A stretch of 64,000 nt of DNA from Mucilaginibacter sp. (GTDB lineage Bacteria; Bacteroidota; Bacteroidia; Sphingobacteriales; Sphingobacteriaceae). Positions 20,953 to 27,824 of this stretch are shown here, in pieces; within the stretch, counting starts at the first letter, position 1; each line of letters begins with the position of its first letter. Location: the NCBI GenBank assembly GCA_028287895.1, contig JAQBOV010000005.1:62001-126000 (forward strand). The letters are read 5' to 3'. The position numbers and the translations under genes were made by a program. Under the pieces are notes generated by a model. It ran no database searches, was not told where the DNA came from, and worked only from the letters and a program-made list of their open reading frames with translations.

Positions 20953-22929
20953 TTATTTTACCCTATAGACCCTCATCACCTGTCCTCCACCGGCAGCCAG
21001 ATCAGTGTTAATCACACTTTGACTATTCACTTTTTGCACTACTTTAACCAGGTGATTAGGGTCTGTGCCCGCATCGGGGGCATCACTGTAGACCTCGGCG
21101 GTAAAATCTCCGGCAGGTAAAAAGGATAAAGCGGTCTTTATACGGTGTGCTGTATTGTTACTGATAGTACCAATATACCATTCCCTGCCTTTGCGGCGGG
21201 CCACGGTAACGTAGTCACTTACCTTTGCGTTGAGTACTTTTGTTTCGTCCCAGCTAAGAGGAACTTGTTGTAAAAACTCAAACCCCGGCTGACCGATATA
21301 AGCATCCGGATAATCACATACCATGCCTTGTTCATTTTCCAGAACCACATACATACCCAGCATGTGGCAGCGCGTACCTAATACCATAGGGGCGGTATAG
21401 TGCGGTTTAAATGTTTTAAGGTTCGCCGCCCGGAAACCGCCTGAATGATAATCTGTTGATCCGGCCAGCAAGCGCGTAAAGGCTATATTCACATCAGCAT
21501 CGGGTGTGACCATAGCATTCCACTTATCATTCTCATAATTTAGCGTCCCCTCCCGGGTGAATTCATTGGGATAGGTTCGGCTGGTACCTGTTGGCTTATA
21601 GGCGCCATGAAACTGGATATGTAAATGATGCTGTGCCGCCTTTTGCAATATCTCCTGCTGCATGTTTACCATTTCCTGATCATCACGATCCATAAAATCA
21701 CACATCAGACCCTTAATGCCCCATTTTTCATATTGGGCGAAAGTTTCATCCATTTTGGGATACAAAGCGTAAAAATGCACCCAAACCCTTATGCCTACTC
21801 CGACCTTTTTTGCTGAATCGCATAACTGCTGCATATCCAACCCCGGAACAGCTTTTGACGGATCAGCATGCCCGCCAGGCTGAAAACCGGCCCCATCGTT
21901 TACATACCATTCGTGTAAACCGTATTCAACCACCGAATGATAGGCCAGGCCATATTTCGCGCAGAAATTCACGTAATACATATTGGTCTGGTAATTGTTG
22001 CCCGGCGCAAAGGAAGTATCGGGTGTTACGTTGCCGTTCCACCAGGGGAAGGTAGTTTTACCCGGCTTTATCCAGGATACATCTTTTATCCGGCAAGGTT
22101 CGGACAGGTTGGTTAATATGTTGGATTCAATCAACGCTCCCACCCGGTCGCTGATCATCATTACCCGCCACGGACTATTATGCGGTAATTTAGCGACCAC
22201 TTTAATTTCCTTTTGATGCGGTAAGGGCGACAGACTGCATTGCAGCACACCATTATGCTTTGTCAAATACATCCCGGCATAATCCAGCAGGTTTGCTTCG
22301 GTAATAGCCATATAAATGCCTTTGGGATACTCAAATAAGGCAGGCAGGTCCATCAGGGTATCTGCTTTTATCTTGCTGAGGGGCAACCGGTCGTACAAGC
22401 CCTCGTGCGAGGTGGTATAATTCTCCCTGAAAAGTGTCAATGCCGTGGGATCATTGGTCAGATTAAAAGTATTGGCTTCGTCGGTTATTTCTATATTTTG
22501 CCAACCGGACTTACCGGGGATAACATAGCGAAAAGCCGCACCATCATTAAAGACCCTGATCTCAATATTCAATTGCCTTTTTGAGCCTCCATTCTCGAAA
22601 ACGGGTATCATTACCTCATTACTCAGGCTATGCACTTTGCTGCTTTTGCCAACGATCAAATCGTAAGTCTCTTCCACTCTTTTTAACGCAGGCTTGCCTA
22701 AGCTTACATTCTTACCAAAAATCCCACCTTCTTCAAAGCTGATGCTCAGCCGGGAGTTATCTATCAATAGCTGACCTTTATAGCTAACACGGTAGATCAA
22801 CCCGGATCGATCTTTACTCAGGCCGAATTCTATTTTTTTATCGGGAGAGGTGACGGTGATATTTTCTTTGGCAAATGCGCAGCTGGAAATAAGCAGCAGA
22901 AAAACAACAGATCGGTTAAAAGCAGACAT
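20953..22929 (-). CDS. Glycoside hydrolase family 97 enzyme
   Basis: A signal peptide (residues ~1-20) leads into a GH97 enzyme of normal length (658 aa): an N-terminal beta-super-sandwich (residues ~25-270), a TIM-barrel core and a C-terminal beta-sheet domain. Motifs include the entry WYVNDGAGFQPGG, GIKGLMCDFMDRDDQ with the Asp expected to be the nucleophile in retaining GH97 members, and FTREGTLNYENDKW with a candidate acid/base Glu. This pattern favours the alpha-galactosidase-like retaining branch over inverting SusB-type alpha-glucosidases, but that needs structural alignment. It probably acts in the periplasm on alpha-linked sugars. There is no SusC/SusD pair beside it. Confidence 0.93.
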   Translation of the reverse strand: MSAFNRSVVFLLLISSCAFAKENITVTSPDKKIEFGLSKDRSGLIYRVSYKGQLLIDNSRLSISFEEGGIFGKNVSLGKPALKRVEETYDLIVGKSSKVHSLSNEVMIPVFENGGSKRQLNIEIRVFNDGAAFRYVIPGKSGWQNIEITDEANTFNLTNDPTALTLFRENYTTSHEGLYDRLPLSKIKADTLMDLPALFEYPKGIYMAITEANLLDYAGMYLTKHNGVLQCSLSPLPHQKEIKVVAKLPHNSPWRVMMISDRVGALIESNILTNLSEPCRIKDVSWIKPGKTTFPWWNGNVTPDTSFAPGNNYQTNMYYVNFCAKYGLAYHSVVEYGLHEWYVNDGAGFQPGGHADPSKAVPGLDMQQLCDSAKKVGVGIRVWVHFYALYPKMDETFAQYEKWGIKGLMCDFMDRDDQEMVNMQQEILQKAAQHHLHIQFHGAYKPTGTSRTYPNEFTREGTLNYENDKWNAMVTPDADVNIAFTRLLAGSTDYHSGGFRAANLKTFKPHYTAPMVLGTRCHMLGMYVVLENEQGMVCDYPDAYIGQPGFEFLQQVPLSWDETKVLNAKVSDYVTVARRKGREWYIGTISNNTAHRIKTALSFLPAGDFTAEVYSDAPDAGTDPNHLVKVVQKVNSQSVINTDLAAGGGQVMRVYRVK

Positions 22930-23439: not shown

Positions 23440-24082
23440 CTAATAGATTTTAACAATTAATTTTTTATAGGCACAGGCTGTGCTGTTGCCAAACCAGAAA
23501 CCAACGGAACCATTTTTCAACTCCCGGTCAAGCGCATTATAGGTCATCACAGGTTTAGGCAGATGATCGACATATACGGTAAGCTGCCGGCCTTTTACAA
23601 CTGCTTTTACATGAAACCAGGGCAGTTGATGGCAGCATAGCTTTTGCCTGGTATTTATTGGCTTGGTAATCCCACCAGTTAAAATCTTCCTTTTTTTCGG
23701 GCATATACTGCACCGCATTGATCGTGCCCGATGCGGCTGGCCTGAAGTAAAGTGTTTCATAATGATGTGCATCTTTGATATGGAACGCCAAACCCAGGTA
23801 ATCCTTCCCTGTGGTTGAGGCCATGTCCAGCTCGATCTCCCCGTCCTCGAAATTTAAACCTTTAGGATAAGCAACCGTCCCGAATTTATAGTTATCAAAA
23901 TCCTTTTTCAGCAACAGCGCTTTTGAGCCCTGGTAGGTATCAAAACTATAACCAAGTCCGCCTGTATCGGGGAGGGTCCATTCAGTTGATTTGATGGTAG
24001 TATAATCATGCGTTTTCTGTTTTTGCTGCGCCAGGGAAACACTGCCCGTTATTATTAAAAAACAAGTGGTTAATATTTTCAT
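23440..24082 (-). pseudogene. Secreted ConA-fold (DUF1080/LamG-like) protein, frameshifted
   Basis: The ATG at 24082 begins a signal peptide (MKILTTCFLIITGSVSLAQ) and a beta-rich domain (FEDGEIELDMAS, LGLAFHIKD, YETLYFRPA, VQYMPE). Near 23635 the frame breaks and the natural continuation (LPWFHVKAVVKGRQLTVYVD ... GSVGFWFGNSTACAYKKLIV) is found one frame over, ending at 23440. The rejoined protein (~210 aa) parallels the next gene upstream in both length and motif order, so the two are duplicates. The break may be a true mutation, a sequencing error, or a rare frameshift. Confidence 0.78.
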
Positions 24083-24118
24083 GGCTAATAATTTAAAAAT
24101 TCAAAAACGATAAAATAC

Positions 24119-24281
24119 CGCCATTTCGAACGAGCCGGGGAAGGAGTTGAGTGGGGTGCGGGGAGAAAACCTATGCGACGCATTACCGAGGCATTGCATA
24201 TAATTTCTCGCCGCCCTGCACCCCCCATTTCAACAATCACAATAATTGGTAAATTGCTTTCTTGACCAAAGGAAATGACAT
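24119..24281. repeat. Imperfect inverted intergenic repeat
   Basis: GTTGAGTGGGGTGCGGGGAG and its inverted, degraded copy (CTCGCCGCCCTGCACCCCCC) lie about 60 bp apart, flanked by CATTTCGAACGAG on the left and AAATGACAT on the right. This is the layout of a family of palindromic elements scattered in Sphingobacteriaceae genomes (from memory). It separates the two ConA-fold genes. Confidence 0.6.
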
Positions 24282-24297
24282 TTTTTTTATTGCTATC

Positions 24298-24945
24298 TTA
24301 CTGATCATTTGTAACTACCAAATTGGCAAAATCCACAGTCGTCGCATCTGCCCATAAGCAGAACATGCCATTGTTCCTTTTTCCCAGGTTCTTTACAGCC
24401 AGTGAGGGTTTGTTCATCCCATTTATATAAACTTTGATGCTGTCCTTGCCAATCAAGATACGTGCGTGTATCCAATCTTCGGGTTTGGGATCGGGTAATA
24501 TCTCGCTTTCAAACTGGCTGGTATTTTCCTTTCTCAGCCGGTCATAAGGATACGCTGGCAAACTCATATATTGAACCGACCATGTCCGGCGCACCGGATC
24601 TGCCGACCTAAAATTAAAGGGTCTGAAATAAACGACGTCATAATTCCTGGAAGTATCGGCCGCATGAAAAGCAATGCCCGCAAAGCTGTGAAGAAATTCA
24701 TTGCGTCCCCTGATGTCCAGCTCAATAGTTCCATAGCCGAAATCAACTCCTTTGAGCCAAACGTTGTCATTGCAGGTGATGCCTTTCTTGTTTCCATCCG
24801 CTAAAGGGTGTATCTCATAAGGGGACGTTATCATTAAATGATGTTCTGCAAGCATGCGTTGCAGGTCAAAAATTACTTTTTGCAGGCTATGCGCCGGCAC
24901 ATTGTACCAGGCTAAAAGCGCCAGTATAAAAAATCCCCTTTTCAT
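24298..24945 (-). CDS. Secreted ConA-fold (DUF1080/LamG-like) protein
   Basis: A signal peptide (MKRGFFILALLAWYNVPAHS) precedes a ~190-residue all-beta domain: FGYGTIELDIRG, FAGIAFHAAD, YDVVYFRPFNF, WSVQYMS, then DWIHARILIGKDSIKVYING and NNGMFCLWADATTVDFANLV. The motif order matches the jelly-roll of DUF1080/3-keto-disaccharide-hydrolase-like and LamG proteins. I see no clear catalytic residue set, so carbohydrate binding is as likely as hydrolysis. Its ATG overlaps the stop of the propeller gene (ATGA), so translation is coupled. The frameshifted gene downstream is a paralogue. Confidence 0.75.
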   Translation of the reverse strand: MKRGFFILALLAWYNVPAHSLQKVIFDLQRMLAEHHLMITSPYEIHPLADGNKKGITCNDNVWLKGVDFGYGTIELDIRGRNEFLHSFAGIAFHAADTSRNYDVVYFRPFNFRSADPVRRTWSVQYMSLPAYPYDRLRKENTSQFESEILPDPKPEDWIHARILIGKDSIKVYINGMNKPSLAVKNLGKRNNGMFCLWADATTVDFANLVVTNDQ

Positions 24946-25868
24946 GATTTTAGATTTTCTTTTTTCAATTTCTCCAACAGATGATCAAACCTTACCCAAA
25001 CCACATGGCAATCCTTGGGGCTGTGGCCCGTTGAATAGAACAGGTATTTACCATCAGGCGTCACATATTGGCCCCAGCGATGAGCAATGCCGTTATTGAT
25101 CAGCGGGCCCAGACTTAACGGCGTGCTCCAGCTCTTATCAGGTTTATGAAAGCTGATATATAATTCGCATTCATAATCTTTTGTTTCTTTTGCGCTGACG
25201 ATGATATAGGATTCATCCCTGGCCACAAAAAAGTCACCCTCAAAACCGGGCGTATTGATCGGCGCTCCCAAACTCCGGATAGTGGTATCCCTGACCGACA
25301 TGTTCAACTCGCAGATATCATAAGTGGTAAAATCTTTCCTGTCGCCCTGTCGGGCATTACTGCCTACATAGCAAACACCACTGCTGGTGGGCATAAAGTC
25401 ATACAGGCCGTAATCTTTTTTGAGGTAAACAGCAGGTTCAGTCCAGCCATTTGCCGTTCTGTGCGATCGCCATACAAAGGCATGCATGCTGTCTCCTGTG
25501 CCGCCCAACATATAAAGCGTATTACCATCAACCGAGAAAGTAGGTGCATAGTAATGCTCATTCAAAACAAATGGCCCGTTCCATCTGCCGCCGGAATATT
25601 TAAAGTAGCGTATTTTACCATTTTTAGTACTAAACCAGGTATCATTGGTAGGATAATAAAATTCCTTACCATCATCAGAAAAGGCAACGCGATCCATAGA
25701 AAAGGTATCTTTTTTCGTCAACAGATCCGGTGCGAATATCTTTGGCGTATCGGCTGGCGGCTTTTGGCCCAAATAAGCGTCCGGACTGTTCCAGAAATTA
25801 GCTTGTGCATGAAGACTATCATTACAAAACAGGCATAAAGCGATTGATAGAAAAAATAACTTGGTCAT
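24942..25868 (-). CDS. Secreted PD40/TolB-like beta-propeller protein
   Basis: I start at the ATG at 25868, which gives a signal peptide (MTKLFFLSIALCLFCNDSLHA); the frame is open 108 bp further but without a signal. The body repeats PD40-type blades: MDRVAFSDDGKEFYYPTND, YYAPTFSVDGNTLYMLGGT, EGDFFVARDESYIIVSAKE, GQYVTPDGKYLFYSTG. Such propellers bind ligands or substrates at the cell surface. No OmpA-like domain follows, unlike many PD40 proteins. It is the first gene of the minus-strand set with the ConA-fold genes and faces the HTH regulator across a 238-bp divergent promoter region. Confidence 0.8.
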   Translation of the reverse strand: MTKLFFLSIALCLFCNDSLHAQANFWNSPDAYLGQKPPADTPKIFAPDLLTKKDTFSMDRVAFSDDGKEFYYPTNDTWFSTKNGKIRYFKYSGGRWNGPFVLNEHYYAPTFSVDGNTLYMLGGTGDSMHAFVWRSHRTANGWTEPAVYLKKDYGLYDFMPTSSGVCYVGSNARQGDRKDFTTYDICELNMSVRDTTIRSLGAPINTPGFEGDFFVARDESYIIVSAKETKDYECELYISFHKPDKSWSTPLSLGPLINNGIAHRWGQYVTPDGKYLFYSTGHSPKDCHVVWVRFDHLLEKLKKENLKS

Positions 25869-25919
25869 AATTATACTGTTAAATTGTATCTGCCTGGGTT
25901 CAGCAGCTACAGGCTTATA

Positions 25920-25927
25920 CAAATTTA
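25920..25927 (-). promoter_or_regulatory. Putative -7 box (TAAATTTG) of the propeller operon
   Basis: An exact TAnnTTTG on the minus strand, 52 bp before the propeller ATG, in the divergent region shared with the HTH regulator gene. Confidence 0.5.
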
Positions 25928-26106
25928 TTTTTATGGAGCAGCAAAGACAATTCAAATACAGTTCAAGTTTTTTCAAGTTGTATCCTTTTGAAGATTAATG
26001 GGTTACATTTTACCATTTTATATTTATATTGCAAAATACGATTGTCCGATAAACGGGTTTCAGACGTCTTACTATCAACTGTATCTGAGAAATATTAAAT
26101 TGCAGC

Positions 26107-27357
26107 ATGAATAGCCAGGGCATAAAGCAATTATTAACCATTATTGAGCAGCAGCTCGACTGGGGAGATGCCACAACCTGGCAAAGCAAAGATTTTGAAT
26201 TACTAAATCAGCTTATTTTCGAAAAGACGAAAGTATCCCTAAGCGCCAGTACCCTGCGCCGGATATGGGGACGTGTAGAATACAATCATTTGCCCAGCGG
26301 CACCACTTTAGATACTTTGGCCCGGTTTGCCGGGTTTGAAAGCTGGAGGGCATTCAGCCGCCAAAACCCTGGAACAGCTCAAGCTATTACTGAAAATCCG
26401 GCACTAGGACCAAAAGCTAAAGCAGGACGGGCGGTAAAAATAGCCCTGGTTATTCTGACTGCGGTTACTATTGCCGTGGTAAGCATATATGCCAAAAAAA
26501 CGCCTGCTCCGATTAAGGGGCCATACTTATTTAACACCCGCCCTGTCACCCGCACAATTCCCAACTCGGTCGTTTTCACTTATGATGTTAAGACCAATCC
26601 GGGCGATTCGGTTTTTATCCAGCAATCCTGGGACCCAGATACCCGCATACCGGTGGATAAGAACAAGCATCAGTTTACTTCAATTTATTATAGTCCCGGC
26701 TTTTATCATGCCAAATTATTGGTCAATAATAAAATTGTAAAGGAGCGGCTGTTGATGATACCCACCACTGGCTGGCTTGGGTTAATAGAACACCAACCCG
26801 TTCCTGTTTACCTCGACCCAAAGGATTTTATCAGCAGGGACGGAATGCGGCTTCCGGCATCAGTTATCACTCGAAACAATATACCTTTCGGTCCGCAACC
26901 TCCCGCGGTAAGCTACTTCAACGTTGGCAATTTTGATCCGGTCCCGCTTAAGGATTTTTCATTTAGTGCAGAAATAAGGAATGATTACCACGATGGCGCA
27001 GCCGCCTGCCAGTATGTGCAGATCACCCTGTTCACCGATAATACGCCGGTGATCATCTTTCTATCGGCCAGAGGCTGTATATCCAATCTCGTCCTGTTAA
27101 ACGGGCGCTATTACGAATCCGGCAAAAACAACGACCTGTCCGGCTTTGGCGCCGACCTCTCCCAATGGGTAAAGGTAAGCTGCCGTAGTATTCCGGGCAA
27201 GATCCAATATTTTGTGAACGATAAATTGGTTTATCAATCTACCCTGCCTTTATATAACGAAAACATTGTTGGCATGGGGTATGGCTTCCAGGGCACAGGG
27301 TCTGTAAAGAATATTGAGCTAAAAACCAGTAATAAATTGGCCTTTAAGGCGTTTTAA
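26107..27357 (+). CDS. Membrane-anchored HTH regulator with PKD-like and ConA-like outer part
   Basis: Three parts can be seen in 416 residues. Residues ~30-85 (SASTLRRIWGRVEYN, TLDTLARFAGFESWRAF) form a helix-turn-helix-like cytoplasmic domain of a kind common at the N-terminus of Bacteroidota membrane regulators. Residues ~109-128 are one membrane segment with no signal peptide, so the N-terminus stays inside. The outside half has a PKD-like block (residues ~150-215, GDSVFIQQSWDPDTRIPVD ... YHAKLLVNN) and a ConA/LamG-like domain (residues ~270-410, DFSFSAEIRND ... WVKVSC ... IQYFVNDKLVYQ ... NIVGMGYGFQGTG). It is divergent from the secreted ConA-fold/propeller genes, its likely targets (inference). 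Confidence 0.77.
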   Translation: MNSQGIKQLLTIIEQQLDWGDATTWQSKDFELLNQLIFEKTKVSLSASTLRRIWGRVEYNHLPSGTTLDTLARFAGFESWRAFSRQNPGTAQAITENPALGPKAKAGRAVKIALVILTAVTIAVVSIYAKKTPAPIKGPYLFNTRPVTRTIPNSVVFTYDVKTNPGDSVFIQQSWDPDTRIPVDKNKHQFTSIYYSPGFYHAKLLVNNKIVKERLLMIPTTGWLGLIEHQPVPVYLDPKDFISRDGMRLPASVITRNNIPFGPQPPAVSYFNVGNFDPVPLKDFSFSAEIRNDYHDGAAACQYVQITLFTDNTPVIIFLSARGCISNLVLLNGRYYESGKNNDLSGFGADLSQWVKVSCRSIPGKIQYFVNDKLVYQSTLPLYNENIVGMGYGFQGTGSVKNIELKTSNKLAFKAF

Positions 27358-27464: not shown

Positions 27465-27824
27465 CTATATCAACCTGCCAGTTTTCATGGCTTCCTGCAG
27501 GTTTTGCACTTTGAATTTCGGCTTATAGATTTTTCTGGCCACCTTTTTCACCCAGCTGGAACGATAACCAAATACCGTTTTTATCACATCTACACCCACT
27601 GAACCCTTTGGATACCCGTATTTATACCAGGTAAATTTAGAGTTGTCAATACGGAATGTATCGGTAAACTCGGCCAGGAAAAGGTCGATCTCAATATCAA
27701 AAATATCCAGATCAAGGTCGATACTGGTATCTACGGTCAGTGCATCCGGATCTACCTTCTGTATCTTGTATCGCTGGCAATATCCTGTAATAAATTCCTT
27801 TAATTCGGGCAGTACTTCTTCCAT
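27465..27824 (-). CDS. DUF1493 family protein
   Basis: A 119-residue acidic protein matching the DUF1493 family: an N-terminal LKEFITGYCQRY helix, the acidic TSIDLDLDIFDIEIDLFLAEF segment that looks like an acyl-carrier-type helix pair, and a basic C-terminal end. The family is uncharacterised, sometimes called acyl carrier protein-like; I do not assign a function. Monocistronic, convergent with the HTH regulator and divergent from the HAD gene. Confidence 0.75.
   Translation of the reverse strand: MEEVLPELKEFITGYCQRYKIQKVDPDALTVDTSIDLDLDIFDIEIDLFLAEFTDTFRIDNSKFTWYKYGYPKGSVGVDVIKTVFGYRSSWVKKVARKIYKPKFKVQNLQEAMKTGRLI

Follow-up and report, generated by a model that had tools for sequence, protein, structure and literature searches.

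How can a transcription regulator that is held in the membrane reach the promoters of its targets, and what might it read on the outside? The question is raised by a divergent locus in a 64,000-nucleotide stretch of Mucilaginibacter sp. DNA (assembly GCA_028287895.1, contig JAQBOV010000005.1, positions 62,001 to 126,000 of the forward strand), which as a whole is called the window hereafter. A preliminary description, made from the sequence alone, placed a membrane-anchored helix-turn-helix (HTH) regulator opposite a signal-peptide propeller gene, a ConA-fold gene and a frameshifted paralogue of the latter, and our open reading frame (ORF) calls recovered all of these in place. We propose, at a probability of a little over three in four, that 26107-27357 (+ strand, 416 residues) encodes a one-component transmembrane activator of transcription. 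Its cytoplasmic HTH-like domain would bind, as an oligomer, at least three TTGAA repeats that recur every 10-11 base pairs (bp) along the same face of the double helix, and would thereby activate a promoter of the sigma-ABfr type at a set distance, its -7 box following two or three helical turns further downstream. On the outer side of the membrane, a PKD-like stalk would hold a sensor of ConA fold, probably for a glycan, and this sensor would control the HTH-like domain via the single membrane helix. The predicted regulon comprises a few secreted ConA-fold and beta-propeller proteins, joined in relatives by beta-helix proteins; for the genome of the window, it would consist of the divergent operon (23440-25868) and a second ConA gene elsewhere (L124 7148-7783; L and G numbers denote loci and genomes of our collection).

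The architecture of the regulator, proposed earlier as an HTH, one membrane segment and an outer half, is seen in its structure model (mean predicted local distance difference test score, pLDDT, 89). The model consists of helices at residues 3-86, a low-confidence linker at 90-107, a helix at 109-130, a beta module at 141-227 and a beta sandwich at about 244-410. The HTH-like domain (residues 1-86; 26107-26364, + strand) is assigned from five predicted helices, from a weak match to HTH_26 (0.0038) in one of 39 relatives and, indirectly, from the linked operator described below. HTH_26 is the sole HTH model in a listing of 25 out of 32 Pfam families for these relatives, and no Pfam family matched the window protein itself at E limits of 1 or 5. 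T49, L50, R52, P63 and T67 of the domain are invariant in an alignment of 39 sequences. The membrane helix lies in the same polypeptide (residues 109-130; 26431-26496, + strand), where hydropathy reaches its maximum of 2.51, and the corresponding segment exceeds 1.6 in 60 of 60 regulators. Of the 60, 45 have more lysines and arginines next to this helix on the side of the HTH than on the other, 7 have fewer, and 8, the window protein among them, have equal numbers; this bias favours an HTH inside the cell in the 45. The outer domain (residues 244-410; 26836-27336, + strand) contains two cysteines, C301 and C324, that are invariant across the 39 aligned sequences and would fit an extracytoplasmic location. 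The module between them and the membrane (residues 141-227; 26527-26787, + strand) had been called PKD-like: it is a PKD/Ig-like beta module in the model, and Pfam support by sequence (PKD in 3/39, PKD_4 in 2/39, best 1.2e-4) is confined to relatives.

The sensor and the secreted protein encoded opposite to it both have a ConA-like lectin/glucanase fold, a beta sandwich that matches solved members in either case, as the preliminary description had anticipated. Residues 245-406 of the regulator align with galectins at Z 12.1 (root-mean-square deviation, rmsd, 2.6; 129 aligned), and the outer domain aligns with CBM66 at Z 11.5 (rmsd 3.8; 147 aligned) and with sialidase BT_1020 at Z 11.5. These calls rest on VIA-align rows and not on Foldseek TM-scores, which are low for the whole regulator because the protein is multidomain. 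The secreted protein (24298-24945, - strand, 215 residues; model pLDDT 91.7) matches CBM66 best (Z 18.0, 155 aligned), followed by BT3469 (Z 16.1) and the 3-keto-glycoside eliminase/hydratase 9fbe (Z 15.3); a sequence search of the PDB with its profile gave one match only, at E 0.044. Its PF06439 score of 20.4 bits, under the gathering cut-off of 26.8, suggests a distant relative of the 3-keto-disaccharide hydrolases. The divergent ConA protein was rejected as an ordinary hydrolase of that family on account of this score, and because strong-scoring members sit elsewhere in the genomes: PF06439 has 6-20 matches per genome in ten genomes, mostly such members.

The operon is led by a signal-peptide beta-propeller gene (24942-25868, - strand, 308 residues), its assignment resting on a PD40 match of 27.0 bits (cut-off 20.9). 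Its start is the ATG at 25868, the listed TTG at 25976 giving too long an ORF, and its end overlaps the start of the ConA gene by 4 bp. The paralogous secreted ConA gene (23440-24082, - strand) is split by a frame change over 23555-24082 and 23440-23772, and is found whole in relatives, e.g., at L040 4056-4697 (213 residues).

Is the divergent arrangement itself conserved? Some match to the regulator occurs in 63 of 251 genomes of the family, many of these being limited to its N-terminal ~90-120 residues and located in longer proteins (~860 residues as a rule), and in at least 19 of 395 genomes of the phylum, an undercount given that four candidates were scored per genome. The wide neighbourhoods of 67 loci were read, taken from family and phylum matches and six named records and picked mostly by score; weaker or similar matches (e.g., G152, G214, G173 and more in G224) lie outside this set. 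Removal of three HTH-only loci (L077-L079), four partial ones (L068, L069, L115 and L116) and three near-copies (L041, L043 and L121) left 57 nonredundant full-length loci. A divergent gene stands opposite the regulator in 49 of them, and a crude rule classes 44 of the 49 first divergent genes as apparently exported. The ConA subfamily appears within the first three divergent genes in 23/57, a beta-helix gene opposite the regulator in 7/57 (one of which has ConA too), and SusC/SusD in 8/57. The pair recurs in relatives beyond chance, as the preliminary description required. Mere chance pairing of ConA and regulator was rejected, since in ten genomes 17 of the 24 ConA-profile matches (1-4 per genome) adjoin the regulator by coordinate comparison, the profile having been built from such neighbours and leaving 12 of the 23 paired loci outside it (L037, L045, L047, L063, L064, L104, L106, L108 and L110-L113). 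A quick tree requires 13 changes of the ConA label, against a mean of 18.4 when shuffled (1 of 500 shuffles as low), and three changes each of the SusC/SusD and beta-helix labels; partners have therefore been swapped several times.

Three side observations concern the family and its neighbourhoods. A sister clade on the tree (L071-L073, L075, L076 and L118-L120) is divergent from SusC/SusD operons, and may control polysaccharide utilization loci. At L040 (6403-6939), L041 (1843-2379), L034 and L043, regulator and divergent gene are separated by a GNAT-like gene, recognized by eye; the window has none. Finally, the ~860-residue proteins share the N-terminal HTH-like domain (L077 1902-4502; L078 754-3351 and 3808-6402; L079 697-3267), followed in L077, the protein scanned, by a NACHT-like NTPase (Pfam NACHT 1.5e-5; 25.4 bits against 26.7), and are possibly a second, cytosolic regulator class built on the same DNA-binding module.

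Do the sensor and its secreted neighbour then read the same ligand? Profile-profile comparison by hhalign aligned the two over 61 columns (E 6.3e-5, probability 64.5). The regulator profile matched secreted ConA proteins in L125 (P0006, 8.7e-5) and L134 (8.2e-6), each search covering the ORFs of one locus, while the secreted profile matched the L075 regulator at 8.7e-4 among all ORFs of the wide loci and at 6.6e-5 among the 60 regulators. Moreover, PF06439 matched 5 of the 39 regulators, at best at 6.9e-6 with all of Pfam searched. The two domains therefore seem weakly related beyond their common fold. The YFRPFNF...VQY signature of the secreted protein, however, does not occur in the sensor alignment, so that a shared ligand is not implied. 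Of the earlier suggestion that regulator and secreted proteins recognise one ligand, the common fold and a weak kinship stand; the missing signature, and family members that face beta-helix or SusC/SusD genes, do not favour the rest. One might tentatively go further and suppose a family of Bacteroidota transmembrane regulators that was overlooked because Pfam hardly sees its HTH, and whose ConA sensor descends from one ancestral stock with the secreted ConA proteins under its control. Sensor and targets would then read the same extracellular glycan, and an oligomer in the membrane would be linked to the sigma-ABfr promoter by tandem HTHs on the phased TTGAA array, but we consider this conjunction doubtful.

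Glycan sensing through the membrane is suggested by the membrane anchoring together with the outer lectin fold. The outer domain may instead be a structural or protein-binding module that senses, for example, the secreted ConA and propeller proteins or the state of the envelope, a reading equally compatible with the proposed events on the DNA. The absence of YFRPFNF from the sensor would fit such a role, as would the quite different secreted proteins that sensors of one family face. On the other hand, the best folds listed are galectins, CBM66 and other proteins that bind or cut sugars, distant relatives face SusC/SusD, and L074 faces a glycoside hydrolase family 2 gene. We regard a sensor for something other than sugar as possible, with the odds leaning clearly toward a glycan.

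What would bring such a protein to its promoter? Reading of the intergenic regions revealed TTCAA three times at steps of 10-11 bp. In the window, this candidate operator is TTCAA-N6-TTCAA-N5-TTCAA at 25951-25976 (+ strand), i.e., three TTGAA repeats on the strand of the targets, and it is the only perfect site in its own genome (4.46 Mb, 92.5 percent complete). At least 14 of the 15 bases were found within 300 bp upstream of the regulator in 21 of the 57 loci, compared with 0.07 expected from first-order resampling, and all 15 in 11 loci, compared with 0.01. Regulator, array and divergent targets occur together in, e.g., Mucilaginibacter sp. OK098 (L035) and Dyadobacter sp. CY356 (L037). By clade, the window's own had 22 of 37, and two others had 0/6 and 0/14; the scan that gave 21 did not run to the end of the region and lacked the L060 site, which the clade tally includes. 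Seventeen of 20 genomes hold 1-4 perfect sites (26 in total, 12 of them at regulators), while a reversed-pattern control gave 8 in total. With N6/N5 fixed, sites with at most one mismatch numbered 7 in the own genome (the perfect one included), 5 in G207 and 9 in G213, and 0, 2 and 1, respectively, for the reversed pattern, which does not account for the excess in G000, G207 and G213. Of the six further sites in the own genome, four are within ORFs, two are intergenic, and none has the distance and orientation of a target; those in G207 (3/3) are within ORFs. Both sets are taken as chance occurrences of an A/T-rich word.

Variant repeats at similar spacing were noticed by eye in the word scan, TACAA upstream of the regulator at L053/L054 and GTTCAT at L109-L113. 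Two sister clades may use these variant arrays, which would suggest co-evolution of array and HTH.

The array is regularly placed with respect to a promoter-like element. TAnnTTTG at -7 is the consensus deduced for sigma-ABfr in Bacteroidota (PMC7366714). In 27 loci, near-copies L040/L041 included, a box of this kind (at least five of six bases) follows the array at 23 bp in 11, 24 bp in 3, 34 bp in 6 and 35 bp in 3, and none of the other 46 offsets within 5 to 54 has more than one. The two distance classes (23/24 and 34/35) are separated by one turn of DNA. The window has TAAATTTG, which matches the box, at 25920-25927 (- strand); read along the target strand, it comes 23 bp past the array. 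Activators that make contact with RNA polymerase usually show this mark, an array upstream of the -7 box and at a fixed helical phase to it. With target starts refined by a hydrophobicity rule, the distance from the array to the start codon of the target was 50-105 bp in 25 of 30 rows (the same near-copies included). In L040 and L041, the array is found at the propeller gene, and the GNAT-like gene separates it from the regulator; in L066, whose regulator is not divergently placed, the site is still 80 bp before the ConA gene.

Arrays also stand before genes that lie away from the regulator, namely ConA genes (L124, L126, L134, L159 and L160), propellers (L130, L132, L133 and L135) and a beta-helix gene (L131). 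Six of the 14 perfect sites away from known regulators are found just before secreted genes in the correct orientation; these encode propellers like that of the window (L130, 72 percent identical; L132, 61 percent), PQQ-type propellers (L133 and, given a later start codon, L135), a beta-helix protein (L131) and a ConA protein (L134). Imperfect arrays precede the second ConA gene in the genome of the window (L124 7148-7783; 13/15, 77 bp upstream) and a ConA gene of G207 (14/15, 56 bp upstream), and in L129 a 14/15 match comes just after the listed start, which is probably too early. As a control, 15 ConA genes were fetched from genomes without a full-length regulator, five of which (G072, G159, G177, G186 and G246) had HTH-only matches, and 14 were tested, L158 being dropped because its start was not found. 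None of the 14 has the array (scores 9-11), while both ConA genes from regulator-bearing genomes tested alongside scored 14, with boxes of 4/6 and 5/6 at offset 23. Co-occurrence also favours the link: a strong ConA match is present in 17 of 27 genomes with the regulator and in 15 of 224 without it (cut-offs of 1e-30 and 1e-60, set afterwards), although the Fisher p of 2.5e-11 is too small because the genomes are related. The regulatory link, previously a guess, now has comparative-genomic support from an array that goes with both regulator and targets and keeps phase with the promoter.

Several points weigh against this scheme. Twelve of the 37 members of the window's clade score below 13 near the regulator; four of them (L034, L040, L050 and L066) match 13-15 near the target instead, and the other eight have no array in the regions scanned. 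TTCAA ranked first among all 1024 5-mers (mean 14.5/15; best shuffled word 11.1), in a blind scan of 15 loci chosen with their arrays already seen. The same word scan gave the SusC/SusD clade (14 loci, no TTGAA array) A/T-rich top words, as in shuffles, so that the array mechanism is not put forward for that clade. Eight of the 14 extra perfect sites are within ORFs, one of only 82 residues, and look like chance, the reversed pattern having given 8 in those 20 genomes as well; and three ConA genes away from the regulator in regulator-bearing genomes (L125, L127 and L128) have no array. The HTH-like domain is without a solved structural relative by sequence: the best PDB match to its profile was caspase-4 (E 0.09, taken for chance), the whole-regulator profile gave at best E 0.16, and single-sequence searches turned up nothing useful. 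Lastly, the array is only 11-61 bp before the start of the regulator in 20 of 31 rows (L040/L041 included), a usual place for autorepression; the site therefore suggests autoregulation, and it fits repression of the regulator as well.

This last point is what recommends a repressor that would sit on the array near the -33 region, block the target promoter and its own, and be released upon ligand binding by the outer ConA domain. The array, however, lies upstream of the -7 box and not across it, and the steps of one turn between 23/24 and 34/35 bp would be required for contact with polymerase but not for blocking; repression is an unlikely account, and an activator that reaches polymerase from an upstream site remains our preferred one. 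That another regulator binds the array, the ConA-membrane-HTH protein being a mere neighbour with a different task, would accord with a link drawn from sequence comparison and with targets that have no adjacent regulator gene, but is very improbable in view of the 14 array-free controls and of an array that stays by the regulator even when the neighbour is MacB/FtsX-like or DUF2911 (L048 and L049).

Two genes flank the locus. A glycoside hydrolase family 97 gene (20953-22929) lies on the same strand, 510 bp downstream of the operon. After the regulator, 27465-27824 on the opposite strand encodes 119 residues to which no function is assigned, and the gene is present in L040 and L041 too.

If the activator scheme holds, an unannotated protein family of Bacteroidota becomes a regulator for which operator, promoter geometry and regulon are predicted, and a single DNA fragment makes all of these, and the regulatory link with them, testable. 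The array can also be used to assign regulons in relatives. The system offers a compact setting in which to ask by what means a transcription factor held in the membrane gets to its promoter, and a lectin-like sensor would join the known ways in which glycan-using Bacteroidota read polymers.

Several known systems come close to this one. The fold of CBM66 from Bacillus subtilis is common to the secreted protein and the sensor, at identities of only 13 and 11 percent from which the ligand is not predictable. The fold of the PF06439 and 3-keto-glycoside eliminase/hydratase proteins (9fbe and 8tda) is likewise common to the secreted protein, which falls under the family's cut-off. A combination of a Pfam-elusive HTH, a ConA sensor, a phased TTGAA array and a ConA/propeller/beta-helix regulon did not come up in searches of an open-access library aimed at it, which is no proof of its absence. 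No match to a winged-helix Pfam model (Trans_reg_C type), such as would be expected of the ToxR/CadC family, was found in the window protein, or in its 39 relatives among the 25 of 32 families listed. In the hybrid two-component and extracytoplasmic function (ECF)-sigma/anti-sigma systems of Bacteroidota glycan loci, an outer glycan sensor controls secreted carbohydrate proteins (PMC10766802). The likeness lies in the SusC/SusD operons that distant relatives of the window regulator face; unlike those systems, the window protein contains no kinase, receiver or sigma domain by Pfam. The kind to which it would belong is already known, that of the transmembrane transcription regulators (TTRs; PMC10269533). 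A census of TTRs finds DNA-binding domains by Pfam models, by which the HTH of this family is barely seen, and may have missed it; 'lectin' and 'PKD' return nothing in the main text of that census (PMC10269533). Single-pass proteins are the commonest form that it describes (PMC10269533), and as in ToxR, CadC and TcpP, a DNA-binding domain (a predicted one here), a membrane segment and an outer domain are joined in the window regulator in one polypeptide.

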